This document shows positions 504-54,365 of a stretch of DNA of 64,000 nucleotides, in pieces (position 1 is the first letter of the stretch; each line of letters begins with the position of its first letter). The translations under genes and the position numbers were made by a program. This DNA comes from Limnomonas spitsbergensis (taxonomy: Eukaryota > Chlorophyta > Chlorophyceae > Chlamydomonadales). The notes below the pieces were generated by a model. The model was not told where the DNA came from, searched no databases, and saw only the letters and a program-made list of their open reading frames with translations. The DNA lies in contig JAYJMM010000112.1 in NCBI GenBank assembly GCA_037349105.1, positions 1,860,001-1,924,000 on the forward strand. Direction: 5' to 3'.

Positions 504-705
504 TGTCACAGTATATTACCGTATACGTGACAGAACCGTTGGAGCCGCCACTAGCGGCCACGGAGCCTCCGCAGCTTCTCTGCGGAGTCTCCGGGTTTGA
601 GCTGAGACCTAGAAACCCGCTTACGCAGGTTGATTTGACAGGTTCTACCGTACTCTGAATTGGGCCTGCCGGGTCCCTGTATCCCGGCAATTGCCTAGGC
701 TAGTT

Positions 706-1155
706 ACTTCGTCCCTTTCTAAAGGACAGACCTCTATTTGTAACAAGCACCGGCCGTCTTCGAGACCAGCAGCTTTCACTGAAGTCAGTACCTTAATCCG
801 AGTCAAGCCTAGCTCAGCCTCAGCTGATCTAGCTGGAGACAAGTACCCCAGTAGAGAACCGAGACCCTTCCGAAGAAGAAGTACGCAGTCTACGTCCCGT
901 CTACCTCACCGCGTGTTGCGCGGTAAGTGCCCTTAACATAGCCCAGCTGGATCGCGCCCAGACGGCCAGAAGGCCTATGCTACCTTAGTCAATTGTTATA
1001 CATACAAACAACCAGTTAGCTGCTTAACTCGCTGAGCACTCGCAGCCAGTGAAGAGTCACTGAGCCTGCCCGTAGGCGTCCATCACTGCCGTGAGGAAAG
1101 AAGTCCGCCACGGACCTGAAGCGCACATCGCGTGTCCTTTAGAAAGGGACGAAGT
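706..1155. repeat. 23-bp perfect inverted repeat in leader
   Basis: The sequence at 706-728 is the exact reverse complement of 1133-1155, with a 404-bp spacer. Both arms contain the core GTCCCTTTCTAAAGGAC. The pair is kept in the partial + unit (16469-16491 and 16896-16918) and in the inverted arm. In copy 3 the rearrangement breakpoint near 41221 falls at one of these arms, which suggests the repeat took part in recombination. Confidence 0.85.
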
Positions 1156-1820
1156 GGATTGAGCCTGATCAGCTTAATTTGCCAATTCCTGCTAAAGGTG
1201 CTTGTGCAGCGAAATTGGAAATTTGTTTGCATGCAAACGACCTTGGACAGCATTTGAACTGCACTTTGCTGTGGTAATCTCCATAGAGAGATTGCCAAGT
1301 TAAACCCTGAGAATCACTGAGCGTGGCAGCTTAGTGTTGAGTCCAGGAGTGGCTTGAAGATCTGGCTGTGGATTTATACACCCAGCAGATAATTTCCTGT
1401 GTGACTGCAGATTGTGATCAGGTGGATCCAATCTTTCATCATTGACAGAAGTGAACTTGTGGATAGAACATCCAAGTTTGAAATCTTGTGGGTGTGCCAA
1501 AGGATCCCCGCAGGAACGCAGAGCTGAGCGGACACTACGCAAGAGGCAACATCCACGCAGGGCGTGTGACATTCACGCGGGACGCGAGACATCTAGAAGC
1601 AGCCCGACCAGCAAGGTGGGGAGAACTGAAAGGGCGAAGGAGGATTCCGCCAGATTAAAACTAGTGAGCAGAAAAGCAGGAAGGCGAGGCCTAACCTGCA
1701 TAGTGCTGTACCTGCCATCCGATCTTGACTTGCAAGCCCTCACCAGATTGCAGTAGGAACAAGGGAGCAGAAGCCTAGCGTTAGCAGATCTTGTAGAGGG
1801 TGTCGCCAGCACGCTTGCAG
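923..1820 (+). other. Possible leader intron
   Basis: A strong donor context (GGTAAGTGCC, cut before 923) and an acceptor context (CGCTTGCAG ending at 1820) bracket most of the leader just before the Gag start at 1851. All copies retain it, including copy 1, whose coding region looks spliced. If it is an intron its removal is not coupled to that of the coding blocks. This is inference from splice-site strings only. Confidence 0.25.
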
Positions 1821-1850
1821 GACCGTGCGGTTCGTTAATTGCCTGTAGAT

Positions 1851-4800
1851 ATGACAGACGTAGATCTAAATCCCGATAGGCACCAGCACCCTGACGCCCA
1901 AAGGAGAAGTGGGCGTCTGAGGGGGCTGGAGCCGGGTGTAAACCTGATGGAAGCTAGTGATGAGATGGCTGCAGAAGCCCTGTTAATGGCGGAGAAGCTG
2001 GCAGGGCCAGCGGAACCATTTGCAGAGGTGCCTGAGCCGGGCCGCGTACCGCCCAGAGAGGCAGGGGCGCAGGCAGATGGTGCAGTGCTCGTAACGCGCA
2101 AAGGCATTGGTCGGGGGGGTCCATTGCCCGCTGGTTCAGACAGCAGTCTGAATTTCGAGCAGTGGCAGACTCAAGCGGGAACTCCAGAACTGATCTTGGA
2201 TCACGTAACGGAAGCGTCCCAAAGCTGTGACACGCGACAGAGAGGTGAACCGGAGGCCGCGCCGCAGCAGAGCCTGCCCAGGGTGGCAAGTGTTGCACAA
2301 CGGGTTAAAAAAGAGCCCAGCCAACCGGATCTAAGGGCCAAAGTAGCCGCAGCCCCAGGCGGGTTTGCAGGCAAGGATAAAACCTTGCCCAGACAAACAG
2401 CGAATGGAAGCAGAGGACATGGAAATTGAGAGTATACTTGCAGAAGTCACACGCATGGAAGCTGAGATCCAAACGGCGGGAACCAGGCAGGTCCCGCGGA
2501 GCAGCAGGAAACCACAGGAAAAGTCAGCTGTACCAGTGGGAAAGCCGTGGGCTGACCTAATATCTGAGGAGGAGCTGCCTCAGCCGATGAAAGAAGAGAA
2601 GGAACGGCAGCCAGTGACAGGATTGCGCCAAAGACAGCCAATGCGACCACGCAAGGTGCTGGTTAAAAGAGGGGTGGGATCCACAGTCTACGGGACACCG
2701 CTGTCCAAGTTTGCGCCCAGTGTGGGCAGACCTGTGCAGACACCCAAGGAGGGATCTAGCAACCAGATGCAAGGCGGCAGCAGCGAGGGATTCCGGCGTG
2801 GATTTTTTCCAAGACCAGCGCAGGCGCAGGATGCCAGACCTAGAGAGCCAGAGCGCTCCAGGGCAGTGGAAGATGTCAGCGTCGAAAAGGAGCCAGAGAA
2901 GCAAATGCAGCCGCTCGGCTGGGCAGGGCTTTTGCAGTGGGCAACAAACCTGTGGAAAGAAGTATGCACCAGGACGTTCTCGCAACTTCAGGATCAAATA
3001 GCAGCCATTGAGGAGTTCAGGGCCCATCATCTGCAGGGATGGGCAACAAAGGCCATGATGGGTATGTCCCACACAGGGCAGGACAGAGCAGCACTGTTGG
3101 CCGCCCTTGGACAGGTGTCCAAGGGAAGGGTAGGACGTGAAGCAGCCCTAGCTGTCAAGGCTCTCGCAGATGAGTGGTGTGATGAGGTGATAGGACATCC
3201 AGTGGAGCACGCTTCCGAACCAGATGATGAGGAGGACCAGGTGTGGGAAGGATTCGAAACAGCAGCGCAACAACCTGCAGATCTCAGGGAAGTCCAGAGG
3301 TGGCAGCAGCAGGCAAGGTCCGCGCCAACACCGACACCCAGATCGGAGTTTTTGAGGTCAGCAGTGAGCCAAGCCTCAGGGGGCGGCCAAGGGGCAGGGA
3401 AGAACCCAGGGCCAGTAGCCCAGCCGCCAGCGAAAGAGTGGAGTTGACTAGCCGATCACTGGCCAGGATGGCTGAGCAGGGCGTAGCAACGCGCAGAGCA
3501 ACCAGGCAGGAATCCTATGCACTCCTGCGCATCGTCGAGGACAAAGAGAACACATGCCAGGAAACCCAGTTGGATAACATTGAGGAATTCCTGAGGAACA
3601 GGCAAGAAGGAGCAGCAAGAGGATGGAGCGCAACAGGGTGAGCCAGCAGGCAGTGTGCGCAGCAGCGGATCAAGAAGGCAGGAAGCCAGAGGGGAAACGC
3701 AATCCGATTCCTTCGCCAGGAATTACACAGGAGGAACGCAGCCAGGAAGACAGTACAGAGGGCAGCCCAGGGGGCAAGCAAGCAGTGAAGGACAGCAGTA
3801 CTGGCAAAGCCAGGAAATACCCAGAGAGCAGGGATACAACAGGGAACAGCCGAACCAGCAAGGCCAGGAGCCGCCCAGGGGGCAGGCAAACAGCTGGGAA
3901 CAGCCAAGGCAGCAAAGTCAGGAGCAACCCAGAGGAGCCGATGAATGCAGCAGGGGAGCACAGCAGGAGCGGCAAGGCCAGGAGCCGCCCAGGGGGCAGG
4001 CAGACAGCTGGGAACAGCCAAGGCAGCAAAGTCAGGAGCAACCCAGAGGAGCCGATGAATACAGCAGGGGAGCACAGCAGGATCGGCAAAGCCAGGAACC
4101 GCCCAGGGAGCAGGCAGGACCAGGCAGAGCACATCCTTGGAGACCCGGGTCGAGCGACAGACCAAGCAGAAGTGAGACCGGGAGGCAGCCGCGCGACGGG
4201 AGTCGAAGCTCCGCAGGAAGAGCAGGCAGACAGCCGTCAAGGGATGATCAGGAGGACAATGACAACAGATTCGACAGATACCGTCCAGGACGCAGCCCGT
4301 CAGGAGGCAGCGGAGGTGGATATGGATCGCGCTCAGAATCACCGAATTCAGATCCAAGGGGAGCGGACAGGCGCAGGCCAAGAACCAGGCAGGAGTCCAG
4401 CGACCAGGAAATGAAAAGGCTCGATAGGGAGCAGGCAAGGGTGAACCTGCAGCTGCAGCAGCAGATGGTCCTGCAGCTGGCAGGGGTAGCCAAGGTCACC
4501 AAGATCCCAGCCATCCAAGGCAACGTACCAGTCCTCGATATGTCACACCCAGGCGCAGTTGCAGCCAGGAAGTATTGCCAGGCGTGTGGATACTGGGGAT
4601 CGCACAACAGGCTGGCAATGTCGGATGACCAGCCAGCGCTGGCTGTGGTGGCCGGTGAAATAGCTGGATCATGCCAGTCGCCGTCAGCTCTGACGTTGCT
4701 TATCAAGTCGCTGGTCAAGCTGTGGGACAGCAAGCCGGCCAGCATGGGGCCACTGATGGCAGCCATCAGGGCAGCGCCCCACGCAGGAAACAGAATTGCC

Positions 4801-7800
4801 AGAGAAGTGGAACGGATCGGGCAGCAGTGGATCGCCCCAGCAGAGGGGCAGGGTTGCGAGGCCTCGCTGCTCACTTTGTGGATCAGGGTGGTCCAGGCGG
4901 AAGTGGGAAAACCAACTTCAGAGGAGAGGACAGCCATCACCAACCTCAGGCTAGGAGTAAAGACTACTCTAGATCCGGACGTCAAGCCAGAAGAGACGGT
5001 GGAAGCATTTGCTCACAGAGTGCTGACAACGGCAGAGTTGCTGCAGATCTCAAGGGATGCAGTAGATCACTTCGGCAGAAGCCACTCTGTCTCGCGCATG
5101 TTCCACGACGGACTCCCAGCTGTTGCTAGAGCCAAGCTGATCAAGTTCGTTATGACGGTGCCCGGGTACCTCAGCATGAACGATGAAGACCAGATCGCAG
5201 TACTCACACAGCAGGTGGTGCTGTGGGAGAGGTTTGCCCTGGAAATGAGTGACCTGGGAGGAACCGGCTTCAGGCAAATAACCAACAGCGGGCCTGGCCA
5301 GGGAGATACACAGCCCAACAGGGGCAGAAAAGAGAGAACGGGACAGTGGGAGATGCGGACACGCCTTGAAGGAGTAGTGCACCCCGCAGGCTCAGCAGCA
5401 GTACCACAGTTGCGGGTGGATGGTAAACCCAGAGGAGTTACCTGGGCGGACCAGACAGGGACGGCAAATTACAGCGCAGAGGGCGCCTTGGGAGCAGCCA
5501 AGGCATGCTACCAGTGTGGTAGCACGGCGCACCTGGCCAGGGATTGCAGGACGCCCAGGGCCAGGGATGAGCGCAGGCCTATGCCCCTGGTTACAGACAT
5601 CACACCTGGACCGGCCAGACAGCCGCAACAGCAGTATCCGCCGCAACAGCAGTATCCGCAGCAACAACAGTACCCTCTACCGCCAAGGCCGCAGCAGGGA
5701 CAGGCTGCAGGCAGGCCGTATGAAAGGAATCAGAACAATAGGCAGTATCCAAGGCCTGGGCCTGGCCAGGGGGGTCAGGCGCAGCAGGCGGCCCACGTGT
5801 CGCATCTCAGCAATGCAACGGTGCAGGCTGAGCCGGAAGGCTGGCACCAGACCATGGCAGAGATGCTCAGCGAGTCCGTGGCACTCATGACGCAGGTTGG
5901 GCTGGCACCCAAGCCTGCGGGTTTCAAACAGGCGGTTCATAACGCCCGTCCTAAGTCGTTTATGCCAGAACCTTTTCAGGAGGAGGAACCAGTGCCAGGA
6001 TTCGTGGAACCTTCCTCCAGGAAGGGGGCAAAGAGGCTGGTATTGAGTAAACTAGCTGACGATATGTCCGACATTCGCTTACAGGTGTTCAAGCTGAACG
6101 AGAGGCTCTCAGCGCTATCTTTCACCACGATGCCAATGGGAGCAGACAACTACGACTACAAGGGTGCCGCTATGAGAGCTGGACAGGACGCAGGACCGAG
6201 CAACACGGTACAACCCAGGCTCCAAAAACAACGGCCGGTGCCAATCGAGGCAGCAATGGCAGAGGCCGGCGCAGCAACCTCAGAGGAGGTGACCAGAGCG
6301 CGCAGAGCCGCGGGAGTCTCTAACAAGGAGAGAGAGTTCGTCAGGGGCTTCATGCCAGCATGCCCTAGCCACCCGTGCGCCTTGTGCGGAAAGCCAGCCA
6401 GGCACTCGGCAGAGGAGTGCGACAGGAGGATTCAGGTCCTTTCGCGGATCCCAGAAACAGCGCCTGCGGTGCAGGCAGCGGCGCCTGCCGCAAAGCAGAG
6501 GAGATATGGCACAGCAGCAGCTGACAGAGCTGCACAAGTAAAATCAGTGCTCAGCAGGGGAGAGCAGGCGCAGCAGCAGCAGCTGCAAGGGCAACCACAG
6601 GTGGCAGGGCCTAGTGTGCAACAGGCCAGCGACGGCGATGGCAGGCAGGCGCAACTGCAGCAGCGGCAGGGGCAGCCAAGGGCAGCAAGGCCTACTGCGC
6701 AACCAGCAAGCGGCAGCGCTAGCAAGGCGCAGGAGGAGGAGATGGAAGAGGAGGAGCAGGAGTGCAGCGTCGAAAAGGTCCCAGAGCCAGGGACCAGCAG
6801 TCGAGACGGGCACATCGGCAGGCTGACCGGGCAAGTTGACGGGCTGAAAAAAGCTCTCAAGTGGAGAGAAAAACAGATGTGGAAGCAGGCAGCAGGAATC
6901 GTCGAGTACCTAGGAGGCCAGCTGGGCAGGTGGAAGAGCATCCAGGATGCTCAGCAAGCCATGGCAGAGGTCCATCAGCAGTACATCCTGCGTGCAGATG
7001 AGCTGACCAAGCTGCATGAAGCCCTGGGAACACAGCACTTGGGGGGGTTGCCAAACCACGGGCAGCCGCTCCCAGTTGAAGTGGACCCAGAGATGGCGGG
7101 GTACTTCAGGAAAATGATGGCGACCCCGTCCCCGTTATCAAACGCGGAGAGCGAGCATTCCGACAAGGGGGAGCCGCAGGGAGAACAGCAACAGGCCGCG
7201 GGTCAGCAGGAAGCTAGGAGCAACGGCTCCAGCGGCTCAGGGAACAGAAGACTCCGACAGCGCAGCAGAAGCGCGCAAAGGGCCATCAGTGAGGAGCGCC
7301 ACGGGATGGTGCCAACACCGGAGGCCAGGGCCCAGCGGCAGGGCAAGGAGCGGTACAACACCAGCGAAGAGCAAGGCGGGGACCGCAGGCGGCAGTCTCC
7401 AAGCAGGGACCGCAGGCAGCGGTCACCCAGCAGGGACCAGCCCAGGGGCAGGTCCAGGGAGCGTCAACCGGAGGAATTTGCCAGGCCTTACAGGCAGGGG
7501 CCAGGGTATCAGCGAGGCCCAGGCCTGAGTCCGCCGGGCAGGGCCCAAGCAGGGGGCAGTGGGGTGGCAGAGCCTAAGCGTAACCTAGGACCCCGCCATG
7601 GTGGAGTCTGCTTCAAGTGCGGCCAGCCAGGGCACTTTGCCAACGAGTGCACCAGCCCTGAGCAGGCAGTGCTAACAGGCGACAGGCCAGGGGCACCTGC
7701 AGGCCCAGCGCGGGGCTATGGAGCCAGAGGGCCCGGCAGGAGCCAGGAGATACCCGAGGGGAACCGGCGCCGGGACTTCGAGACAGCCATGGGGACATCC

Positions 7801-11770: not shown

Positions 11771-12196
11771 CCGAGCAGGGGGTACGAGGAGGAGGATTTA
11801 CAGCAGGCCAAGGGGCTTTTGTGTCTGGACAAGAGGCAGCAGCGAAGCTGTCGTCTGGATGGTTGCGCCCGCCAGCAGTCATCCCCATGGGGGGTACCAG
11901 CAGGAGGGGTGCCTGCAGCCAGCAGGAGAGCTGGCACAGCGGCAACACCACTGGCAGGGAAGAGCCGCCCGCGGAGGACGACCCGCAGGCGGCTGAGATG
12001 ATCGACATGTTCCAGCCGGGGGGAGTAGTGGAGCCGCCCGCGGAGTACGTCAAGACCAAGGAGGGGTGGCTGCTGGGCCAGCACCCCGACTTCACTGCGG
12101 AGGCAGCAGGAGAGCCTGGAACAGAGCCTCCGGGATCGCCAAGGAGCATTCGCTTACTCCATGGAGGATCTACCAGGCTACTGCGGCACGCAGGGC

Positions 12197-13235
12197 CTGG
12201 ACACAGCTTGCCTGTCGAGTGGGGCTGTGCGGGCCATGGAGACCGAGGGAGTCGTCCTTTTCGAGCCCTTTGGAGGTATGTGCTCAGGGCTGGAGATGGT
12301 GCTCAGGGCAGGTATCCCAGTGGTGCAGTACTTGTATGCTGATATCAGTGAGGAAGTCAGAGAGATCGCAGGGGGTCGCCTGTTGCAGTTGCACAGGAGA
12401 TACCCTCAGTTGCTTCCGGTCAAAGCGTTTGATAAGGCTTTCAGAGCGTTGCCCCAAGATGTGTATGCCATTACGGCGGAGCACCTCCAGGAGGCGGGTG
12501 CCCAGGAGGGGCGCCAGTGGTTCATGGTAGCAGGCTGGGAGTGCCAGGACCTCTCGTCAGCTGGCAAGGGGCGTGGGCTCGCGGGAGAGAGAAGCAAGTC
12601 TTTCTTCCCGTTAGTCAAGCTGTTGGGTACACTACAGTTCCTGCAGGGGCCTAGGCCGCCAGCGTACCTGATTGAGAATGTGGCCATGCAATTGAATCAG
12701 AAGAGTGTGAAGGCCAGTGTTGAGGCTTTTCAGGAGGTGTGCAGGATTCTGGGGACACCGGCGTTGTTTGACGCAGCGCAGGTGGGGTCTTACGCCCACC
12801 GCACCCGCAACTATTGGGGGAATATCGCCCCTGCAGCAGATATTGAGTTTGTGATTCGTGCGTCGACCAGACCCCACGAGGGGATAGTAGACGACATTCT
12901 GGACAAGGGCAGCAAGGCCCAGGTAGTCTCATGTCCGGACAATGGGGGGTACCGCATCAACGTAACGGGCCAGCCCAGGAAGGTGCTGCCATGTTTGATG
13001 GCCACGCCCTCATCATATTCTTTTCGAAACGGGCAAAATGGGATGGTGTACAGACCCATGGGGGACTTGCAGGAGCCCAACGCAAACGAGCGTGAGCGAG
13101 CCATGGGGTACGCTGTGGGGTCCACATTGCCGCGCCCAGACTTCCCAGAGGCAGCCAGGAGGGCAGCCTTGGGCAGGTGCATGGATTCGTGGGCACTGGG
13201 TGCATGGCTCAATGTGGCACTTGAGTGTGCTACAA
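12197..13235 (+). other. Copy 1 C5 DNA methyltransferase domain
   Basis: The motifs of C5 cytosine methyltransferases appear in order. They are motif I (LFEPFGGMCSGLE, SAM binding), motif IV with the catalytic Cys (GWECQDLSSAGKGRG), motif VI (YLIENVAMQ), motif VIII (HRTRNYWGN), and a motif IX/X-like end (ERERAMGYAVGST then RCMDSWALGAW). The residue before the catalytic Cys is Glu where Pro is usual. In this copy the domain directly follows the pre-RT segment because RT-RH is missing. Confidence 0.88.
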
Positions 13236-13739
13236 TCATACCAGAGGAATTGAAACGCAGGGCAAGGCTGCCAGGCCCGGACAGGGACCCAGTGCTGGGT
13301 GCAACTTTGATGTCCAGCCACTATGCCCTTGCTTCTGCAGGAAACGCATGCTCTGGCAGCGGAGAAGTGGCCGCGTCATACAGGCAGTGCCTGGGAGAAT
13401 CGGCTGCGGCAGACTGGGCCGACGCGGCACAGGAACCAGGTGGGAACACGCCTGAGGAACAAGTTGATGTTGAAATCGTGGTGACCAGGGACACAGAGGG
13501 TGAGAAGGACCCGCCAGGATGCCCTGCAGGACCATCGGTCAGGGTTGATGTGTGGGCAGATGAACCTGTTTTGAGGTTTCTCCGTGAGAAGACATTTGTT
13601 CAGGGAACAGAGCTAGGAGAACAGACCAGAATACAGCGCAGAGCTGCGCCATTCCAGTGGGAATCAGAGAGGGGAGGAGTGCTGATGAGACTCATGCCTG
13701 ACGGTAGACGTTGTGTGGTGCCCATGCCAGAGGACAGGC

Positions 13740-16264: not shown

Positions 16265-16270
16265 GCTGTC
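16261..16270. repeat. Unit junction palindrome GACAGCTGTC
   Basis: The last bases of one unit (GACA) and the first of the next (TGTC) are joined by GC, giving a perfect 10-bp palindrome. The same junction occurs at 19558-19567 and 41875-41884. It resembles end-to-end joining of linear element DNA carrying one extra base per end. Confidence 0.8.
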
Positions 16271-17922
16271 ACAGTATATTACCGTATACGTGACAGAACC
16301 GTTGGAGCCGCCACTAGCGGCCACGGAGCCTCCGCAGCTTCTCTGCGGAATCTCCGGGTTTGAGCTGAGACCTAGAAACCCGCTTACGCAGGTTGATTTG
16401 ACAGGTTCTACCGTACTCTGAATTGGGCCTGCCGGGTCCCTGTATCCCGGCAATTGCCTAGGCTAGTTACTTCGTCCCTTTCTAAAGGACAGACCTCTAT
16501 TTGTAACAAGCACCGGCCGTCTTCGAGACCAGCAGCTTTCACTGAAGTCAGTACCTTAATCCGAGTCAAGCCTAGCTCAGCCTCAGCTGATCTAGCTGGA
16601 GACAAGTACCCCAGTAGAGAACCGAGACCCTTCCGAAGAAGAAGTACGCAGTCTACGTCCCGTCTACCTCACCGCGTGTTGCGCGGTAAGTGCCCTTAAC
16701 ATAGCCCAGCTGGATCGCGCCCAGACGGCCAGAAGGCCTATGCTACCTTAGTCAATTGTTATACATACAAACAACCAGTTAGCTGCTTAACTCGCTGAGC
16801 ACTCGCAGCCAGTGAAGAGTCACTGAGCCTGCCCGTAGGCGTCCATCACTGCCGTGAGGAAAGAAGTCCGCCACGGACCTGAAGCGCACATCGCGTGTCC
16901 TTTAGAAAGGGACGAAGTGGATTGAGCCTGATCAGCTTAATTTGCCAATTCCTGCTAAAGGTGCTTGTGCAGCGAAATTGGAAATTTGTTTGCATGCAAA
17001 CGACCTTGGACAGCATTTGAACTGCACTTTGCTGTGGTAATCTCCATAGAGAGATTGCCAAGTTAAACCCTGAGAATCACTGAGCGTGGCAGCTTAGTGT
17101 TGAGTCCAGGAGTGGCTTGAAGATCTGGCTGTGGATTTATACACCCAGCAGATAATTTCCTGTGTGACTGCAGATTGTGATCAGGTGGATCCAATCTTTC
17201 ATCATTGACAGAAGTGAACTTGTGGATAGAACATCCAAGTTTGAAATCTTGTGGGTGTGCCAAAGGATCCCCGCAGGAACGCAGAGCTGAGCGGACACTA
17301 CGCAAGAGGCAACATCCACGCAGGGCGTGTGACATTCACGCGGGACGCGAGACATCTAGAAGCAGCCCGACCAGCAAGGTGGGGAGAACTGAAAGGGCGA
17401 AGGAGGATTCCGCCAGATTAAAACTAGTGAGCAGAAAAGCAGGAAGGCGAGGCCTAACCTGCATAGTGCTGTACCTGCCATCCGATCTTGACTTGCAAGC
17501 CCTCACCAGATTGCAGTAGGAACAAGGGAGCAGAAGCCTAGCGTTAGCAGATCTTGTAGAGGGTGTCGCCAGCACGCTTGCAGGACCGTGCGGTTCGTTA
17601 ATTGCCTGTAGATATGACAGACGTAGATCTAAATCCCGATAGGCACCAGCACCCTGACGCCCAAAGGAGAAGTGGGCGTCTGAGGGGGCTGGAGCCGGGT
17701 GTAAACCTGATGGAAGCTAGTGATGAGATGGCTGCAGAAGCCCTGTTAATGGCGGAGAAGCTGGCAGGGCCAGCGGAACCATTTGCAGAGGTGCCTGAGC
17801 CGGGCCGCGTACCGCCCAGAGAGGCAGGGGCGCAGGCAGATGGTGCAGTGCTCGTAACGCGCAAAGGCATTGGTCGGGGGGGTCCATTGCCCGCTGGTTC
17901 AGACAGCAGTCTGAATTTCGAG
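16267..17922 (+). mobile_element. Partial second unit, 5' part
   Basis: This segment repeats 504-2159 almost perfectly (one difference noticed by eye, near 16349). It includes the leader and the first about 100 Gag codons (ATG at 17614), and then breaks off after the hairpin TTCAGACAGCAGTCTGAA. It forms the left arm of a large inverted repeat. It could be called a 3' LTR of copy 1, but it runs into coding sequence and does not end in CA. Confidence 0.8.
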
Positions 17923-17931
17923 GGTCTTTCA

Positions 17932-19561
17932 CCAGCGGGCAATGGACCCCCCCGACCAATGCCTTTGCGCGTTACGAGCACTGCACCATCTGCCTGCGCC
18001 CCTGCCTCTCTGGGCGGTACGCGGCCCGGCTCAGGCACCTCTGCAAATGGTTCCGCTGGCCTGCCAGCTTCTCCGCCATTAACAGGGCTTCTGCAGCCAT
18101 CTCATCACTAGCTTCCATCAGGTTTACACCCGGCTCCAGCCCCCTCAGACGCCCACTTCTCCTTTGGGCGTCAGGGTGCTGGTGCCTATCGGGATTTAGA
18201 TCTACGTCTGTCATATCTACAGGCAATTAACGAACCGCACGGTCCTGCAAGCGTGCTGGCGACACCCTCTACAAGATCTGCTAACGCTAGGCTTCTGCTC
18301 CCTTGTTCCTACTGCAATCTGGTGAGGGCTTGCAAGTCAAGATCGGATGGCAAGTACAGCACTATGCAGGTTAGGCCTCGCCTTCCTGCTTTTCTGCTCA
18401 CTAGTATTAATCTGGCGGAATCCTCCTTCGCCCTTTCAGTTCTCCCCACCTTGCTGGTCGGGCTGCTTCTAGATGTCTCGCGTCCCGCGTGAATGTCACA
18501 CGCCCTGCGTGGATGTTGCCTCTTGCGTAGTGTCCGCTCAGCTCTGCGTTCCTGCGGGGATCCTTTGGCACACCCACAAGATTTCAAACTTGGATGTTCT
18601 ATCCACAAGTTCACTTCTGTCAATGATGAAAGATTGGATCCACCTGATCACAATCTGCAGTCACACAGGAAATTATCTGCTGGGTGTATAAATCCACAGC
18701 CAGATCTTCAAGCCAAGCCTGGACTCAACACTAAGCTGCCACGCTCAGTGATTCTCAGGGTTTAACTTGGCAATCTCTCTATGGAGATTACCACAGCAAA
18801 GTGCAGTTCAAATGCTGTCCAAGGTCGTTTGCATGCAAACAAATTTCCAATTTCGCTGCACAAGCACCTTTAGCAGGAATTGGCAAATTAAGCTGATCAG
18901 GCTAAATCCACTTCGTCCCTTTCTAAAGGACACGCGATGTGCGCTTCAGGTCCGTGGCGGACTTCTTTCCTCACGGCAGTGATGGACGCCTACGGGCAGG
19001 CTCAGTGACTCTTCACTGGCTGCGAGTGCTCAGCGAGTTAAGCAGCTAACTGGTTGTTTGTATGTATAACAATTGACTAAGGTAGCATAGGCCTTCTGGC
19101 CGTCTGGGCGCGATCCAGCTGGGCTATGTTAAGGGCACTTACCGCGCAACACGCGGTGAGGTAGACGGGACGTAGACTGCGTACTTCTTCTTCGGAAGGG
19201 TCTCGGTTCTCTACTGGGGTACTTGTCTCCAGCTAGATCAGCTGAGGCTGAGCTAGGCTTGACTCGGATTAAGGTACTGACTTCAGTGAAAGCTGCTGGT
19301 CTCGAAGACGGCCGGTGCTTGTTACAAATAGAGGTCTGTCCTTTAGAAAGGGACGAAGTAACTAGCCTAGGCAATTGCCGGGATACAGGGACCCGGCAGG
19401 CCCAATTCAGAGTACGGTAGAACCTGTCAAATCATCCTGCGTAAGCGGGTTTCTAGGTCTCAGCTCAAACCCGGAGACTCCGCAGAGAAGCTGCGGAGGC
19501 TCCGTGGCCGCTAGTGGCGGCTCCAACGGTTCTGTCACGTATACGGTAATATACTGTGACA
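17932..19561 (-). mobile_element. Inverted 5' unit fragment
   Basis: Read on the minus strand this begins TGTCACAG at 19561 and runs through the leader into the first about 97 Gag codons, stopping at 17932. It is joined through GC (19562-19563) to the 3' end of copy 2, so copy 2, like copy 1, is followed head to tail by the start of another unit. Confidence 0.8.
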
Positions 19562-20434: not shown

Positions 20435-23400
20435 TCACGTGCTCAGCGGCCTTGCCGCTCTGGGCTCGGCCTCAGGTCTCGGTAAGCTCTTCAAGGGCTG
20501 ACTCCTCTTCCTCCCTTGCTGCTTCTTTGGCCACCTTAGCCCTTCTTGTAACTGCTCTCGGGGTGACATTGGCCTCTCCCCGGCCAGTGGTGTACGAGAT
20601 GTCGTATAATCCGTTCGCCATTGGTCTTGCGATGCCCCGCTCCATTTGCCTTGTTGCTGGGTTGGTGGCCATGACTTCCACCTCAGGCCTGTCCATGACG
20701 TTGGCCTCCTGGGCTGTCCTGGCAGCCGCTCTGGCTGCTGGGCTCGGCCTCCCCTGGACCTGCAAACTGCGATCTTCTGCAGCGGGTCCTGCCCTTGCCG
20801 CGGCTCAGCTCCCTTGTCCTTAGGCGCGCAAGTTGGGCACAACCACTCGCCCTCGGGCACCTCCTCGAGTACTGGTACCAAGCAATCCATGTGCCAACCT
20901 GTATTGCAGGCATCACACAAAAGCATCACCTCTCCGCGATCAGGCAGCTGGCACACCTCGCATGACAGGCTGTTATTGGGTCTGGTTCCACTGAAATCAA
21001 CCACTCCCCTGAGGTTGGGCAAGTGGCATGGAGAACAATTGACAGCATTCTCTGTTACTGTGAGGCCATCTGCCCCCTCCAACACCAAGGTTCCCGTCGC
21101 CCCCAATGTTTTGACCCTGAGGATCTCAGGCCTGGCCTTGGGATCGAGGCTGCGTCGCTCTGATGAATACTTCACATACACGTAATCTCCCTCTGCAAAA
21201 CGCCTGACCTGGGGGACATACCCTCCCCCACGAATGCGTGCATATCGCAGCTTGTCGCGGTGCTGCGCAATTTTTAGATGCTCACCCGCGACTGGCAGTG
21301 CCTCTTTGATCCTAGCCACTCTGGCCAAGAGCAGGTCTGCTGCCTCCTCTGCTGTTGCCACCTTGGCTGTGCTCCAGAGGTCCGCCCCCACTCTGGAGGG
21401 AAAGGTGGGTCTCTGCCCGAACAGCACCTCGTACGGCGCCATGCGCGTGGCCTGTTGCGGCGAGCACCGGAAGCCTAGGGCTACCCAGGGCACCATCTTG
21501 TCCCAGGACTCGTCGCTGCTGCCCTCCTCGCAGCACTTGCGCAGGCCTGCCTTGAGGGTCTGGACAGCCCTCTCTGATAGCCCGTCTGCCTGGGGGTGGT
21601 TGGCAGAAGTGGTGCGGTGGTCAATGAAACAGTCCAACAACATGTCCTGAAATTCACCCTGGAACTCTGTTCCCTGGTCTGTCACCACTTCTGCGCATCC
21701 CCCGAATCGCGCAACAACATTTTGAAAGAACGCTAAGGCCGTCACATCAGACGCCTTGCTTGGAATGGGGATCAACTCCACCCATTTGGAGTAATGCTCC
21801 ACACAAACCATCACAAACATATTGCCCCTGGAAGTGGTCGTAAATGGACCACACAGGTCCACTCCCCACCGGAAAAACAACCCCTCAATGGGTAGTGGGT
21901 GCAGGTTGGGCTGTATGTGATTGAATGTGGACGCCCTGGCCCTGTCACACACACCACATTCCTGCACTGCCTTCTTGACTGCTGCTCTGAGCCCCCGCCA
22001 CCAATGCTGCTGCATGACCATGAAGGCCGTGCGGTGGCTGCCAAAATGGCCCGTACCGGCATGGGCTGTCTGGATCACTGCAAGCCTGTCCTCTGGCCTG
22101 GGCACCACACAACGTCTACCGTCAGGCATGAGTCTCATCAGCACTCCTCCCCTCTCTGATTCCCACTGGAATGGCGCAGCTCTGCGCTGTATTCTGGTCT
22201 GTTCTCCTAGCTCTGTTCCCTGAACAAATGTCTTCTCACGGAGAAACCTCAAAACAGGTTCATCTGCCCACACATCAACCCTGACCGATGGTCCTGCAGG
22301 GCATCCTGGCGGGTCCTTCTCACCCTCTGTGTCCCTGGTCACCACGATTTCAACATCAACTTGTTCCTCAGGCGTGTTCCCACCTGGTTCCTGTACCGCG
22401 TCGGCCCAGTCTGCCGCAGCCGATTCTCCCAGGCACTGCCTGTATGACGCGGCCACTTCTCCGCTGCCAGAGCATGCGTTTCCTGCAGAAGCAAGGGCAT
22501 AGTGGCTGGACATCAAAGTTGCACCCAGCACTGGGTCCCTGTCCGGGCCTGGCAGCCTTGCCCTGCGTTTCAATTCCTCTGGTATGATTGTAGCACACTC
22601 AAGTGCCACATTGAGCCATGCACCCAGTGCCCACGAATCCATGCACCTGCCCAAGGCTGCCCTCCTGGCTGCCTCTGGGTACTCTGGGAAGTCTGGGCGC
22701 GGCAATGTGGACCCCACAGCGTACCCCATGGCTCGCTCACGCTCGTTTGCGTTGGGCTCCTGCAAGTCCCCCATGGGTCTGTACACCATCCCATTTTGCC
22801 CGTTTCGAAAAGAATATGATGAGGGCGTGGCCATCAAACATGGCAGCACCTTCCTGGGCTGGCCCGTTACGTTGATGCGGTACCCCCCATTGTCCGGACA
22901 TGAGACTACCTGGGCCTTGCTGCCCTTGTCCAGAATGTCGTCTACTATCCCCTCGTGGGGTCTGGTCGACGCACGAATCACAAACTCAATATCTGCTGCA
23001 GGGGCGATATTCCCCCAATAGTTGCGGGTGCGGTGGGCGTAAGACCCCACCTGCGCTGCGTCAAACAACGCCGGTGTCCCCAGAATCCTGCACACCTCCT
23101 GAAAAGCCTCAACACTGGCCTTCACACTCTTCTGATTCAATTGCATGGCCACATTCTCAATCAGGTACGCTGGCGGCCTAGGCCCCTGCAGGAACTGTAG
23201 TGTACCCAACAGCTTGACTAACGGGAAGAAAGACTTGCTTCTCTCTCCCGCGAGCCCACGCCCCTTGCCAGCTGACGAGAGGTCCTGGCACTCCCAGCCT
23301 GCTACCATGAACCACTGGCGCCCCCCCTGGGCACCCGCCTCCTTGAGGTGCTCCGCCGTAATGGCATACACATCTTGGGGCAACGCTCTGAAAGCCTTAT

Positions 23401-26020
23401 CAAACGCTTTGACCGGAAGCAACTGAGGGTATCTCCTGTGCAACTGCAACAGGCGACCCCCTGCGATCTCTCTGACTTCCTCACTGATATCAGCATACAA
23501 GTACTGCACCACTGGGATACCTGCCCTGAGCACCATTTCCAGCCCTGAGCACATACCTCCAAAGGGCTCGAAAAGGACGACTCCCTCGGTCTCCATGGCC
23601 CGCACAGCCCCACTCGACAGGCAAGCTGTGTCCAGGCCTGCATGTAAATGAGGGGGCGTCACCCGAGGCAGGTCAGCAAGAACATCACTGATCATTGTCC
23701 TGGCCCGCTCCTTGTTGCTGAATGCCTGTTCTGCCGTACTGACAGGCTGCGCCTGCTCATCATCGTAAGTGGCGGCAGAGGATATCTCCTGCCCCACCTG
23801 CGCTGTCACGCAAGCTGCCTCTGCAGCTCGCAACATCTGTACTCTCCTTCTGCCCTCCTGCGCCATGCGCACTATCTGGTCTGCATGCCACTGGTTCACT
23901 CTGCCCAACCCCGTGAGCAAAGCTACTTGTTTCCCACCTGCCTCCTCCTGGACTGCTGGCTCGGGAGCGGCTGTGTCGAGCCTGGCCCCTGTGCGGTCAG
24001 CTGAGGATGGGAGTGGCGATCTGGACGGGATGTCCGCATTCTGGTGGCATGCCCCTGAGCGGTGGACAATGGTAATGTCCAGTTCTTGAAGCATGAGAGC
24101 CCACCTAGCATGCTGGCCCACCAACTTCTGATTGTCCATGAGGTAAGTGAGCGGCTCATGGTCAGTGATGAGATGCACCTTGCATCCAAACAGCATGTGG
24201 CGGTATGTGCGTGCTGCATACACTGCGGCCAGCATCTCCCCCTGGAACGAGGAATAGTTCCTCTCGCTCTTGTTCAGGGATCTGGACGTGCATGCCACCA
24301 TATACTCCCGCCCGCTGTCGTCACACTGCCCTAGCACGGCGCCTATGCCTTGCTGAGAGAAATCTGTGTACAACAAGAACGGCCTTGGCGGCCCCTTGCC
24401 GCCTGGCCCTGTCCCACTGTAATCTGGTCTGCGCAGGACTCTTCCGCCCTCGCACATCTCTGTTTTGATCAACTGGAACGCCTGCGACTGCTCTGGCCCC
24501 CACACAAACGGGACCCCCTTGACCAGCAATGCGTTGATGCATGCCGCCTTTTTCGAGAAATCCGGGACGTAGCACCGGTAGAAATTCAAGAATCCCATGA
24601 CCTCCTGAAAGTTTTTCACCGATGTGGGCTCTGGCAGCGCCATAACTGCTGCTATCTTGGCTGCGTGCGGCGGGAGCCCCTGGGCCGACACATTGTGACC
24701 CAGGTACTCTACTGTTGCACACCCAAACAGGGACTTGTCGGGGTGCGCCCTTAATCCTACACTGTGGAGCATGTCCAACATCAGCTCCACATGCCTGATG
24801 TGTTCTGCCGGTGTGTCACTGTACACTAGCAGATCGTCAATGAATGCCACGCAGAACGCACTCAGGCCTGCCCTGGCAATCTCCTCTTCCATCATACGCT
24901 GAAAGAAGGGAGGCCCATTGCGCAGACCGAAGTTTAGCTTTGTGTACATCCAAAGCTCAGGTCCCATCCAGAAAGCTGTCTTAGGCTGGTCCTCGACCTT
25001 TATAGGGATCTGCATGAACCCCGACCGGAGATCAACCTTGCTGAATATCTTGGCAGTGCCCAGGTTCTGAAAAATAGTCTCCATCCTGGGGATTGCAAAT
25101 TCCTGCTTAGCCGTACACTGGTTTAACCTGCGCATATCGTGCGCTATCCGATGGTCTGTCCACTCCCCAGTCTCAGCACTCTTCTTGGCTGCTACTACTG
25201 AGTTGGCTGCAAACTTGATAGGCCCCCCCTGGGGCACCTTGACTATGATGCCTGCCTCAATCATCGGCTGACACTTTTCCTTAAAAATTGCCGCCTTAGG
25301 CGGTGGCATATTAGGCATATCCCTGGACTTCTGAAAGCACGAACTGACCTCGTCTTCTAAAGCCAGCGTAAACTCACCCTGCGTGCCGCAGTAGCCTGGT
25401 AGATCCTCCATGGAGTAAGCGAATGCTCCTTGGCGATCCCGGAGGCTCTGTTCCAGGCTCTCCTGCTGCTCCGCAGTGAAGTCGGGGTGCTGGCCCAGCA
25501 GCCACCCCTCCTTGGTCTTGACGTACTCCGCGGGCGGCTCCACTACTCCCCCCGGCTGGAACATGTCGATCATCTCAGCCGCCTGCGGGTCGTCCTCCGC
25601 GGGCGGCTCTTCCCTGCCAGTGGTGTTGCCGCTGTGCCAGCTCTCCTGCTGGCTGCAGGCACCCCTCCTGCTGGTACCCCCCATGGGGATGACTGCTGGC
25701 GGGCGCAACCATCCAGACGACAGCTTCGCTGCTGCCTCTTGTCCAGACACAAAAGCCTCTAGGCCTGCTGTAAATCCTCCTCCTCGTACCCCCTGCTCGG
25801 TGGCTCGCGCCCCCGGCACACACACCGACAGCAGGAGCCACACCAGTATCAGCTGGAGCGTCCCCGTAAGGATCCCCTTAAATGCTGTACAGGTGAGGAG
25901 TCCTCTGCAAGCTGGCATCTTCCTCGTGGGTTGCTGCGGTAGGTGCTCTGTGGGCTGTACGCATGGCTCTGCACTCTGCGCTGGCCTCTGCTGCCCCCTG
26001 GCCCATGTGATCTCCAGGTC
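20435..26020 (-). CDS. pol: Copy 2 RT-RH-DNMT-IN-PHD open frame
   Basis: This is the best-preserved enzymatic frame: 1,827 codons from the first Met (25918), and open further back to the transposon insertion at 26020. Counting from 25918, the hydrophobic segment is at residues 14-38. RT spans about 230-480 with FIDD at about 359. RNase H starts at about 510 (YTDFS, GEMLA, TDHEP). The DNMT spans about 765-1115 with catalytic Cys at about 876. The integrase spans about 1285-1640 (Asp about 1352, Asp about 1412, Glu about 1448), and the PHD finger about 1651-1697. A single-base loss near 20808 (against copy 1) replaces the natural C-terminal tail. The 5' end is cut off by the DNA transposon, so this is a partial gene without its own start. 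Confidence 0.85.
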   Translation of the reverse strand, partial: DLEITWARGQQRPAQSAEPCVQPTEHLPQQPTRKMPACRGLLTCTAFKGILTGTLQLILVWLLLSVCVPGARATEQGVRGGGFTAGLEAFVSGQEAAAKLSSGWLRPPAVIPMGGTSRRGACSQQESWHSGNTTGREEPPAEDDPQAAEMIDMFQPGGVVEPPAEYVKTKEGWLLGQHPDFTAEQQESLEQSLRDRQGAFAYSMEDLPGYCGTQGEFTLALEDEVSSCFQKSRDMPNMPPPKAAIFKEKCQPMIEAGIIVKVPQGGPIKFAANSVVAAKKSAETGEWTDHRIAHDMRRLNQCTAKQEFAIPRMETIFQNLGTAKIFSKVDLRSGFMQIPIKVEDQPKTAFWMGPELWMYTKLNFGLRNGPPFFQRMMEEEIARAGLSAFCVAFIDDLLVYSDTPAEHIRHVELMLDMLHSVGLRAHPDKSLFGCATVEYLGHNVSAQGLPPHAAKIAAVMALPEPTSVKNFQEVMGFLNFYRCYVPDFSKKAACINALLVKGVPFVWGPEQSQAFQLIKTEMCEGGRVLRRPDYSGTGPGGKGPPRPFLLYTDFSQQGIGAVLGQCDDSGREYMVACTSRSLNKSERNYSSFQGEMLAAVYAARTYRHMLFGCKVHLITDHEPLTYLMDNQKLVGQHARWALMLQELDITIVHRSGACHQNADIPSRSPLPSSADRTGARLDTAAPEPAVQEEAGGKQVALLTGLGRVNQWHADQIVRMAQEGRRRVQMLRAAEAACVTAQVGQEISSAATYDDEQAQPVSTAEQAFSNKERARTMISDVLADLPRVTPPHLHAGLDTACLSSGAVRAMETEGVVLFEPFGGMCSGLEMVLRAGIPVVQYLYADISEEVREIAGGRLLQLHRRYPQLLPVKAFDKAFRALPQDVYAITAEHLKEAGAQGGRQWFMVAGWECQDLSSAGKGRGLAGERSKSFFPLVKLLGTLQFLQGPRPPAYLIENVAMQLNQKSVKASVEAFQEVCRILGTPALFDAAQVGSYAHRTRNYWGNIAPAADIEFVIRASTRPHEGIVDDILDKGSKAQVVSCPDNGGYRINVTGQPRKVLPCLMATPSSYSFRNGQNGMVYRPMGDLQEPNANERERAMGYAVGSTLPRPDFPEYPEAARRAALGRCMDSWALGAWLNVALECATIIPEELKRRARLPGPDRDPVLGATLMSSHYALASAGNACSGSGEVAASYRQCLGESAAADWADAVQEPGGNTPEEQVDVEIVVTRDTEGEKDPPGCPAGPSVRVDVWADEPVLRFLREKTFVQGTELGEQTRIQRRAAPFQWESERGGVLMRLMPDGRRCVVPRPEDRLAVIQTAHAGTGHFGSHRTAFMVMQQHWWRGLRAAVKKAVQECGVCDRARASTFNHIQPNLHPLPIEGLFFRWGVDLCGPFTTTSRGNMFVMVCVEHYSKWVELIPIPSKASDVTALAFFQNVVARFGGCAEVVTDQGTEFQGEFQDMLLDCFIDHRTTSANHPQADGLSERAVQTLKAGLRKCCEEGSSDESWDKMVPWVALGFRCSPQQATRMAPYEVLFGQRPTFPSRVGADLWSTAKVATAEEAADLLLARVARIKEALPVAGEHLKIAQHRDKLRYARIRGGGYVPQVRRFAEGDYVYVKYSSERRSLDPKARPEILRVKTLGATGTLVLEGADGLTVTENAVNCSPCHLPNLRGVVDFSGTRPNNSLSCEVCQLPDRGEVMLLCDACNTGWHMDCLVPVLEEVPEGEWLCPTCAPKDKGAEPRQGQDPLQKIAVCRSRGGRAQQPERLPGQPRRPTSWTGLRWKSWPPTQQQGKWSGASQDQWRTDYTTSRTPLAGERPMSPREQLQEGLRWPKKQQGRKRSQPLKSLPRPEAEPRAARPLST
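20824..20969 (-). other. Copy 2 PHD finger
   Basis: A complete C4HC3 zinc ligand set is visible, identical to copy 1. It lies directly after the integrase tail and before the frameshifted C-terminus. Confidence 0.88.
21010..22085 (-). other. Copy 2 integrase domain
   Basis: The HHCC motif (H near 22060, CGVC near 21950), the DDE core and the C-terminal tail are all intact in frame. A few conservative changes relative to copy 1 (for example Met to Leu in the segment after the first Asp) do not touch catalytic residues. Confidence 0.88.
22590..23637 (-). other. Copy 2 C5 DNA methyltransferase domain
   Basis: All motifs seen in copy 1 are present: motif I near 23575, catalytic Cys motif near 23290, ENV near 23155, the RTRNYW motif near 23025, and motif IX/X before 22600. 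A 9-bp insertion adds three residues near 22680 (between motifs IX and X) relative to copies 1 and 3. The domain lies between RNase H and integrase and starts exactly after the splice-like acceptor at 23638. Confidence 0.88.
23638..25377 (-). other. Intron-like cassette encoding RT and RNase H
   Basis: In sense orientation this block begins GTGAGTTT at 25377 and ends ACATGCAG at 23638. It is 1,740 bp (580 codons), open in frame and bounded at codon phase 1 on both sides. Copy 1 lacks precisely this block (junction 12194/12195). It encodes the RT motifs (FSKVDLRSGF, KTAFWMGPELW, FIDDLLVYSD) and RNase H (LLYTDFS, GEMLAAVY, TDHEPLTYL). The RT catalytic box is FIDD rather than the usual YxDD, a variant common in Ty3/gypsy elements. 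Whether it is really spliced is inferred from the borders and the copy 1 deletion. Confidence 0.75.
26018..26020. repeat. DNA transposon target duplication GTC, left
   Basis: The uninterrupted copy 3 reads CCAGGTCTACCTGG here. In copy 2 GTC occurs on both sides of the insert (26018-26020 and 36610-36612). If one extra terminal C is assigned to the inverted repeats the duplication would be only T, but 3 bp is more plausible. Confidence 0.75.
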
Positions 26021-26043
26021 ATGGCATTCTATCTTGGGTGGTC

Positions 26044-26279
26044 GAGTTTTGACTGAAATTTGAAATAGAAATCGGCAATACAGCAGTCGTCCAGCAGTCG
26101 CCGAAAAGTCTCTGAGCAGTCTGATTGTCGCCTTAGAGCAGTCGCTACATATTGCCGTATTTTAAACCGTCGATGCCCGCAGTCGCTTCGATAACGTAGC
26201 AGTCGGTACGTCGTATAGCCTGACACAGACTGCTCTAATGACGGCCGACCACGAAGTCTTTATAATTCCACAGCAGTAA
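26044..26279 (+). promoter_or_regulatory. Left subterminal repeats and promoter region
   Basis: At least six GCAGTC motifs lie in this interval, most extended to GCAGTCG, plus one inverted AGACTGC. One carries the longer core CGCCTTAGAGCAGTC that also occurs four times near the right end. In TIR transposons such clusters typically bind transposase. The segment is also the likely promoter of the gene starting at 26280. Confidence 0.55.
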
Positions 26280-27587: not shown

Positions 27588-27594
27588 GTATGTA

Positions 27595-28248: not shown

Positions 28249-28310
28249 CTTTAACGCATGCTTCAGCTTGCATGATTTTTTTGTGTGATGCTGTTTGTTT
28301 GTTCTTGTAG

Positions 28311-45950: not shown

Positions 45951-47685
45951 CTGCATGTAAATGAGGGGGCGTCACCCGAGGCAGGTCAGCAAGAACATCA
46001 CTGATCATTGTCCTGGCCCGCTCCTTGTTGCTGAATGCCTGTTCTGCCGTACTGACAGGCTGCGCCTGCTCATCATCGTCAGTGGCGGCAGAGGATATCT
46101 CCTGCCCCACCTGCGCTGTCACGCAAGCTGCCTCTGCAGCTCGCAACATCTGTACTCTCCTTCTGCCCTCCTGCGCCATGCGCACTATCTGGTCTGCATG
46201 CCACTGGTTCACTCTGCCCAACCCCGTGAGCAAAGCTACTTGTTTCCCACCTGCCTCCTCCTGGACTGCTGGCTCGGGAGCGGCTGTGTCGAGCCTGGCC
46301 CCTGTGCGGTCAGCTGAGGATGGGAGTGGCGATCTGGACGGGATGTCCGCATTCTGGTGGCATGCCCCTGAGCGGTGGACAATGGTAATGTCCAGTTCTT
46401 GAAGCATGAGAGCCCACCTAGCATGCTGGCCCACCAACGTCTGATTGTCCATGAGGTAAGTGAGCGGCTCATGGTCAGTGATGAGATGCACCTTGCACCC
46501 AAACAGCATGTGGCGGTATGTGCGTGCTGCATACACTGCGGCCAGCATCTCCCCCTGGAACGAGGAATAGTTCCTCTCGCTCTTGTTCAGGGATCTGGAC
46601 GTGCATGCCACCATATACTCCCGCCCGCTGTCGTCACACTGCCCTAGCACGGCGCCTATGCCTTGCTGAGAGAAATCTGTGTACAACAAGAACGGCCTTG
46701 GCGGCCCCTTGCCGTCTGGCCCTGTCCCACTGTAATCTGGTCTGCGCAGGACTCTTCCGCCCTCGCACATCTCTGTTTTGATCAACTGGAACGCCTGCGA
46801 CTGCTCTGGCCCCCACACAAACGGGACCCCCTTGACCAGCAATGCGTTGATGCATGCCGCCTTTTTCGAGAAATCCGGGACGTAGCACCGGTAGAAATTC
46901 AAGAATCCCATGACCTCCTGAATGTTTTTCACCGATGTGGGCTCTGGCAGCGCCATAACTGCTGCTATCTTGGCTGCGTGCGGCGTGAGCCCCTGGGCCG
47001 ACACATTGTGACCCAGGTACTCTACTGTTGCACACCCAAACAGGGACTTGTCGGGGTGCGCCCTTAATCCTACACTGTGGAGCATGTCCAACATCAGCTC
47101 CACATGCCTGATGTGTTCTGCCGGTGTGTCACTGTACACTAGCAGATCGTCAATGAATGCCACGCAGAACGCACTCAGGCCTGCCCTGGCAATCTGGCTC
47201 CTCTTCCATCATACGCTGAAAGAAGGGAGGCCCATTGCGCAGACCGAAGTTGAGCTTTGTGTACATCCAAAGCTCAGGTCCCATCCAGAAAGCTGTCTTA
47301 GGCTGGTCCTCGACCTTTATAGGGATCTGCATGAACCCCGACCGGAGATCAACCTTGCTGAATATCTTGGCAGTGCCCAGGTTCTAAAAAATAGTCTCCA
47401 TCCTGGGGATTGCAAATTCCTGCTTAGCCGTACGCTGGTTTAACCTGCGCATATCGTGCGCTATCCGATGGTCTGTCCACTCCCCAGTCTCAGCACTCTT
47501 CTTGGCTGCTACTACTGAGTTGGCTGCAAACTTGATAGGCCCCCCCTGGGGCACCTTGACTATGATGCCTGCCTCAATCATTGGCTGACACTTTTCCTTA
47601 AAAATTACCGCCTTAGGCGGTGGCATATCCCTGGACTTCTGAAAGCACGAACTGACCTCGTCTTCTAAAGCCAGCGTAAACTCAC
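45951..47685 (-). other. Copy 3 RT-RNase H cassette, damaged
   Basis: It has the same GTGAG (47685) and CAG (45951) borders as copy 2. Length is 1,735 bp, explained by a 4-bp duplication near 47195 and absence of a 9-bp repeat near 47625. A TAG stop near 47386 and the 4-bp shift kill the RT. Confidence 0.75.
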
Positions 47686-53714: not shown

Positions 53715-54365
53715 CTGCGCGCGTGGCCATGGCATGCTGTAAGAGCGGCTCGTGCTCTGTTTCAACTGTTGCAGCGGGCCACCCCTCTCTTTCTGCGAAT
53801 CCACACTGGATTCCTGCCCATGCCACTGCTGCTGCCTGGTACCCCCCTGCTGGAGATGCCCGCATTAGTGGCAGCGTAAGGTCCCTGACCCCTTGCGCTC
53901 TCTGTGGGCCCTCTCTGGGTCGTAAGGTCAGTCTTCCTGCTGCCTCTAATACCCCGTTATACTTGAGGAACTCCGGGTTCCCTACCAAGTGCTCATATGC
54001 GTCTGGTGGCGTCTTAACGACCCTGACCACCGTAGGTTCCATAATGGCATTGGGCCCCCCATATCCATACACCACATAAATGAACAGCACTCCATACAGA
54101 TCTGCCCCTCCATTGTCTGTGGTACGTATTTTCTCATCCGTACGCACCAGCTCCGCCCCCATGGCAACTAATTGCTCTGCAATATTGACAGTGATGACAT
54201 GGCACGTGCATGCTGAGTCCATGAGGGCTTTCTGAGCCACCAGGACCTTCCCTTTGACCATAAGTCCCACACACTGCTCCAGATTGCTTCTGTCATTTTT
54301 GAAATACTGCAGCTGGGGTGCAGCTGTCATCGTTCTACTCTCTGGCCTGGTGTTACTGGTCTCAC
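53715..54365 (-). other. Intron-like cassette encoding aspartic protease
   Basis: In sense orientation the block begins GTGAGACC (54365) and ends CGCGCAG (53715). It is 651 bp (217 codons), in frame with no stops. It contains a retropepsin-like active site, ALMDSACTCHVI, near 54200-54225, with Asp-Ser-Ala instead of the commoner Asp-Ser/Thr-Gly. Copy 1 lacks exactly this block (junction 6163/6164). The junction also shares GGTG on both sides, so a microhomology deletion is an alternative to splicing. Confidence 0.7.

Follow-up and report, generated by a model that had tools for sequence, protein, structure and literature searches.

The window, by which we mean the whole stretch of 64,000 nucleotides analysed here, spans positions 1860001-1924000 of contig C112 and contains three copies of one element (Table 1). 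In copy 2 a single frame of 1,908 amino acids encodes reverse transcriptase (RT), RNase H, methyltransferase, integrase and a PHD finger. Its Pfam matches run in the order RVT_1 (1e-22), RT_RNaseH (2.7e-30; two RNase H models matched), Integrase_H2C2 (1e-10) and rve (4.9e-10), and a match to PF00145, the C5 DNA methylase (2.9e-5, 24.1 bits against a cut-off of 22), sits between RNase H and integrase, within Pol. Copy 1 has a gag-like frame, containing zinc knuckles, in its upstream part. With RT, RNase H and integrase in one Pol frame, and with long terminal direct repeats, the element belongs to the Ty3/gypsy-type LTR retrotransposons, and its Pol includes a DNA methyltransferase and a PHD finger. 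Among the best 120 of 562 related proteins, the named relatives come mostly from chlorophyte algae (Haematococcus lacustris, Monoraphidium neglectum, Pleodorina starrii, Tetrabaena socialis and Chlamydomonas eustigma), and one protein of these 120 carries a bacterial MAG label. A chlorophyte is therefore the probable host.

Copy 1 has no clean target-site duplication; its flanks differ, and its 3' side is rearranged relative to copy 2. The two copies stand tail to tail (17900-17950) with 8 bp between the ends of their repeats, and the last 24 bp are missing from the copy 2 repeat. An insertion of about 10.6 kb (26021-36605) splits copy 2 and has 7 bp of the element on either side (copy 1 positions 11551-11557), resembling a target-site duplication. 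At 30244-33792 there is a repeat array with 72-bp steps and an open frame on each strand (1,176 and 1,182 amino acids), and at E 0.05 Pfam matched neither frame. The stretch from copy 2 to copy 3 includes an inverted element fragment (40637-41227), at which the 3' repeat of copy 3 is truncated.

Table 1. Copies of the element in the window, junctions at which a block is absent, and the blocks themselves (window positions)
Feature	Position	Strand	Remarks
Copy 1	terminal repeats 504-2159 and 16267-17922	+	
5' long terminal repeat, copy 1	504..2159	+	99.94% identical to 16267-17922
3' long terminal repeat, copy 1	16267..17922	+	
Copy 2	17931 upward, broken off after 26020, resumes 36606	-	
Copy 3	~58266 to 41227	-	
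I1 junction, copy 1	6155..6172	+	cut 6163/6164; 651-bp block of gag-like frame absent
I1 block, copy 3	53715..54365	-	651 bp, GTGAGA...GCGCAG; coordinates converted by hand
I2 junction, copy 1	12185..12205	+	cut 12194/12195; RT-RNase H block absent
I2 block, copy 2	25377..23638	-	1,740 bp = 580 codons; reverse transcriptase and RNase H
I2 block, copy 3	45951..47685	-	1,735 bp, not a multiple of 3; coordinates converted by hand
I3 block kept in copy 1	12276..13340	+	1,065 bp, GTATGT...CTGCAG; coordinates converted by hand
I3 block, copy 2	22483..23556	-	1,074 bp; C5 DNA methyltransferase match, opens at conserved GG motif
I4 block, copy 2	21590..22383	-	794 bp, not a multiple of 3
I5 block, copy 2	20899..21285	-	387 bp; after integrase core, ends within PHD finger

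A preliminary description of this DNA had drawn attention to the loss of the RT-RNase H stretch from copy 1, and the junction it placed at 12194/12195 proves to be exact. Copy 1 reads GCACGCAGG up to the cut and GCCTGGACAC beyond it, with GCCTGG on the right; the block present in copies 2 and 3, here called I2, begins GTGAGTTT and finishes ACATGCAG, running from GTGAGT to GCAG with the ends and the lengths (1,740 and 1,735 bp) that had been given for it. The microhomology of about 2 bp noted at the time corresponds to a 2-bp ambiguity (GG), under which the joined sequence allows the cut to be placed in three ways, only one of which is GT..AG: AGG/GTGAGT...TGCAG/G. The 580 codons do lie in one frame of copy 2, inside its 1,908 amino acids, and their removal keeps that frame, fusing the pre-RT segment to the stretch that precedes the methyltransferase. 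We infer that the catalytic core of the element could be removed as an intron.

Copy 1 has a second precise gap, omitted from the preliminary description, where a block of the gag-like frame (I1) is absent, and three more blocks, I3, I4 and I5, are lost from other copies in the same manner. I4 holds the integrase zinc-binding domain and the rve match, up to a PQADG motif. At the five borders 5, 3, 4, 6 and 4 placements of the cut are possible, the joints having short overlaps of 2-5 bp, and at each border exactly one placement is GT..AG, which for all five would arise by chance with a probability of about 1e-9 (hand arithmetic, at 1/256 per placement). The borders are read directly from the DNA. 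The lengths of I1 (651), I2 of copy 2 (1740), I3 (1065/1074) and I5 (387) are multiples of three, and those of I4 (794) and of I2 in copy 3 (1735) are not; loss of I4 shifts the frame and leads to a stop 275 bp on. Each of the four Pol-frame donors of copy 2 falls on a GGT glycine codon, in phase 1. Judged on the first 60 of the 120 related proteins, the I3 donor lies within a methyltransferase GG motif conserved in 59/60 relatives, the I4 acceptor within the conserved integrase motif PQADG and the I5 acceptor inside the PHD finger, at the conserved motif GWH. Because three borders fall inside conserved motifs, the splice products would be cut enzymes and not clean domain subsets, and for this reason clean domain cassettes were dropped as the leading reading.

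The assembly (260 Mb, 124 contigs) was searched with 18-mers that span each joint. With 0-1 mismatch these occur at 3 (I1), 47 (I2), 42 (I3), 64 (I4) and 59 (I5) places, and at 47 places the I2 junction is no product of chance. With up to two mismatches the totals rise to 7, 148, 68, 149 and 63 places, against 3, 7, 12, 18 and 29 for the backward controls, which refer to these two-mismatch totals. Since the controls are not negligible, two-mismatch rows were mostly set aside; among the matches listed, most of the I2 rows of this kind belong to another repeat. Intact donors, again with up to two mismatches, were found at 435 (I2), 529 (I3) and 421 (I5) places, with 10, 2 and 7 in the backward controls, so that the joined form accounts for roughly 7-12% at I2, I3 and I5, by hand ratios in which the mismatch limits differ between joined and intact.

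Copies elsewhere in the genome do share the I2 borders. Loci L001-L068 were mapped on copy 3, a gap being scored where more than 60 bp were missing and fewer than 40 bp were extra. The aligned borders are identical in 35/38 I2 gaps (six places were fetched twice), L003, L007 and L014 being off by a few bases; this uniformity is partly ascertained, because I2 loci were chosen by DNA match or by an 18-mer spanning the joint and were therefore picked across it. Outside I2, 44/47 gaps fall on the borders of I3, I4 or I5 (18, 15 and 11 loci). The remaining three are those of L067 and L068, probably a single deletion event, which has no GT..AG placement, and of L048, where no exact border placement was found; L062 has lost most of its I2 block, in an irregular manner that falls outside the gap filter. 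Heterogeneous deletion ends, which the preliminary description would have counted against its own reading, are thus found as exceptions only, at L067/L068, L048 and L062. As observations in their own right, L062 has at 1060-1490 about 0.4 kb with a tRNA-like sequence in place of most of the RT block (ARAGORN, 1162-1236, with an odd four-base anticodon under the bacterial code), and L044 has at 1687-2500 about 0.8 kb of other sequence soon after the I4 joint, after which the element resumes.

The losses also occur together. Counted from positions among the matches listed, at least one of I2-I5 is lost at 131 places, and 14/15 subsets of these losses are directly observed among them, I2+I4+I5 being the subset not seen at these 131 places. 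Single losses (I2 24, I5 23, I4 19, I3 9), where a loss counts as single if the pattern detected no other join, and the copy may be short or divergent, stand beside double losses (I4+I5 9, I3+I4 7, I2+I3 5, I2+I4 2, I3+I5 1, I2+I5 1), triple losses (I3+I4+I5 9, I2+I3+I4 6, I2+I3+I5 1) and the loss of all four (15). In three groups, with spacings of 402, 398 and 398, an I4 loss was missed by the 18-mer and is counted with I4; 7 (I2) and 11 (I3) two-mismatch rows were kept by eye and the others dropped, and the two-mismatch rows of I4 (including an array on contig C28) and of I5 were left out of this count. Some of the neighbouring places on contigs C37 and C105 may have arisen by segment duplication, and the places therefore do not all stand for separate events. 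Two series of evenly spaced matches were seen besides: 18 identical 18-mers resembling the I4 joint with two mismatches, many of them about 4.23 kb apart (G000:C28:2991381-3137049), perhaps a tandem array derived from a spliced copy, and seven I2 donors that follow one another on a single strand at intervals of about 5.97 kb (G000:C84:617086-652928), perhaps a tandem array of block-bearing pieces of the element.

Trees of the sequence flanking I2 bear on how often the block was lost. The downstream tree (1.5 kb after I2, 43 rows, 15 of them joined, with 21 loci lacking the full flank and the duplicates set aside) requires 10 changes, at least 8 of them forced by starred branches, and a single clade of joined copies is rejected on it (AU p 3e-9); with 11 more rows it requires 13 changes, at least 9 forced. 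The upstream tree (1.4 kb, 40 rows covering the flank, 9 with the block, without L087-L091) requires 8 changes, of which 7 or more are forced. On the trees of both flanks joined copies are intermingled with intact ones, from which it follows that the same exact loss of I2 recurred. Five joined lineages fall into starred sets with block-bearing copies on both flanks, namely L027, L013 with L022, copy 1, L029 (upstream with the joined L030) and L007. L027 differs from L058, and L013/L022 from L059, by less than 0.2% on both flanks, and for copy 1 the distance is about 0.3% to copy 2 on the downstream flank and 0.8% to copy 3 on the upstream one. In the enlarged downstream tree, moreover, a subfamily whose block ends in CCTTGCAG, not ACATGCAG, has the identical joint. 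Recurrence plus the same joint arising from differing block ends is something that a single spreading deletion fails to explain. Gene conversion could move a joint between copies, but for the five lineages both flank trees argue against it. It is for I2 only that recurrence is established by tree. Thirteen joined copies that form a clade in the upstream tree, with a methyltransferase that is under purifying selection in the 12 loci of this clade that were tested, first suggested a self-amplifying clade without RT. That idea was dropped for the GGATACAG subfamily, for which 71 block-bearing places of the GGATACAG variant were found; 5 fetched block-bearing copies of this variant fell among its joined copies. 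The joined-only groups that remain, L009/L034 and L026/L036/L037, are thinly sampled.

The Pol blocks I2-I5 are coding sequence under purifying selection. They lie in one open frame of copy 2, and N/S, taken from differences against copy 2 among the copies examined, is 0.13 (I2), 0.21 (I3), 0.21 (I4) and 0.04 (I5, with few sites) relative to the neutral expectation, rising to 0.86 of that expectation after I5. The splice dinucleotides are almost always kept as well: where the block is present, the donor GT is found in 10/10 copies for I2, 45/45 for I3, 48/48 for I4, 10/10 for I5 and in one for I1, and the acceptor AG in 46/46 for I3, 6/6 for I4 and 6/7 for I5, the single deviating acceptor being AA; the 32/32 for the I2 acceptor is ascertained by the search pattern. 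Fourfold silent positions within splice sites, covered by at least 40 copies and not used for picking, are invariant in 4/4 cases against 149/366 elsewhere, an excess (p about 0.03 by hand, among related copies) that weakly suggests selection on the splice sites themselves. Four alpha-tubulin loci of the host, read by eye, have GT..AG introns with CAG/GT donors, so that an ordinary spliceosome with matching borders is present in the host.

Overall, we believe that splicing of coding sequence by the host, followed by retrotransposition of the spliced RNA, is very probably the best explanation of these observations. The preliminary description had taken copy 1 for what reverse transcription of a spliced RNA would leave, and the shared borders, the recurrence and the GT..AG placements all favour that view. 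For example, consider the transcript of a full copy. At least five coding stretches within it carry standard GT..AG splice borders, and in some of the transcripts the host spliceosome would excise one or several of these stretches, in the manner of exitron splicing. Packaging of the spliced RNAs, reverse transcription by enzymes translated from unspliced RNA, and insertion would follow, and the outcome would be DNA copies without RT-RNase H, without methyltransferase, without parts of integrase, or without combinations of these. Splicing at the level of RNA, the supply of enzymes in trans and the mostly leaky character of the splicing are what we infer from such copies. The motifs at the borders may exist for protein reasons and can yet act as cryptic splice sites.

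The main rival has the splicing step in common with this explanation and differs in purpose alone: coding introns would serve as enzyme cassettes in a programme of combinatorial splicing that yields graded Gag/Pol isoforms, with the DNA copies as a by-product. The phase-1 donors at a glycine codon, the 14/15 combinations, the invariance of the silent splice positions examined and the frame-neutral lengths of I1, I2 (copy 2), I3 and I5 all speak for it. Such a length is usual among exitrons without being required of them, and Drosophila copia is a precedent for partly spliced RNA of an LTR retrotransposon. At the same time, three borders lie within motifs that are conserved in relatives (GG in 59/60, PQADG and GWH) and loss of I4 brings a frameshift and a stop, which together make leaky splicing likelier than an evolved domain-cassette programme. 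The spliced Gag-only RNA of BARE1 is a further precedent on the side of a programme (described in part of PMC3735527); even so, we consider programmed splicing unlikely, if worth keeping in mind. The more specific claim that the RT-RNase H, methyltransferase and integrase stretches are removable coding introns, whose combinatorial Gag-Pol isoforms are recorded as DNA copies, strikes us as more doubtful still.

Explanations that dispense with splicing fare worse. Single deletions that arose in DNA, or by template switching while the RNA was being reverse-transcribed, and that were then amplified or spread by recombination, would account for the 2-5 bp overlaps at the joints, and irregular deletions do exist (L067/L068, L048, L062). 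Nonetheless, such events would not be expected to recur at identical borders on both flank trees, to allow a GT..AG placement at all five borders or to leave the joint unchanged where the block end differs between subfamilies, and the sole irregular deletion with resolved borders, that of L067/L068, is not GT..AG; we regard this account as improbable. The reverse order of events, in which the joined form came first and acquired the blocks by a later, introner-like gain, would suit their intron-like ends. However, what lies within the blocks (RT, RNase H, methyltransferase and integrase parts) is either required by a retroelement or shared with relatives, purifying selection acts on the blocks, several joined copies are tips beside intact ones, and no gap longer than 100 amino acids was found among the relatives (the best 120 of 562 proteins, best-scoring long ones only), so we give a later insertion very little credence. 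Collapsed or chimeric repeats in the assembly might be suspected from the tail-to-tail arrangement of copies 1 and 2 and the rearrangements in copies 2 and 3, yet joined copies occur on many contigs, each with variants of its own, and an artefact is scarcely believable.

If host splicing followed by retrotransposition is the correct account, splicing has left a fossil record in this genome, in which more than 100 copies display which coding stretches were excised and in what combinations. It then becomes testable whether splicing of coding sequence limits algal LTR retrotransposons, as an effect of the host, or tunes the ratio of Gag to Pol for the element, and how frequently spliced RNA is packaged and copied. 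A literature search over titles and the openings of abstracts, with few subscription journals, recognised no case in which Pol enzyme blocks are lost combinatorially at fixed splice borders.

Among the systems that are known, the closest type of element found is KnitGypsy-Dnmt3 of Klebsormidium nitens, an LTR Gypsy element that encodes a DNA methyltransferase within its Pol frame and whose copies, in the part of PMC5890265 that describes them, are said to be without introns and to have Ka/Ks < 0.2. The likeness lies in the methyltransferase inside Pol; the element described here differs in its PHD finger (the term PHD has 0 occurrences in the main text of PMC5890265), in its chlorophyte named relatives and in its splice-like losses. 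In BARE1, as portions of PMC3735527 report, one class of spliced RNA favours Gag and encodes only Gag. As in BARE1 and copia, the RNA of an LTR retrotransposon would here be partly spliced, a view drawn in our case from DNA, whereas combinatorial loss of Pol enzymes fixed in DNA goes unmentioned in those portions (PMC3735527). Exitrons, described in excerpts of PMC4484396 as alternatively spliced introns inside protein-coding exons of Arabidopsis and human genes, resemble I2-I5 of copy 2 in being coding and free of stops, although here exitrons would be recognised from DNA copies of a retroelement. The closest process is that behind the spliced integrated retrotransposed elements (SpIREs) of human L1, which make up 131/6,609 (about 2%) of annotated full-length L1PA1-L1PA6 and in which, according to the sections of PMC5860796 concerned, spliced element RNA is re-inserted to give many copies with exact splice joints. 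The element in the window shares with them GT..AG joints, at 5/5 recurrent borders, and independent recurrence, for I2. In this comparison, SpIREs lose the 5'UTR or the 5'UTR/ORF1 (PMC5860796, same sections), whereas the LTR element described here loses large enzyme-coding parts, at five sites and in most combinations.
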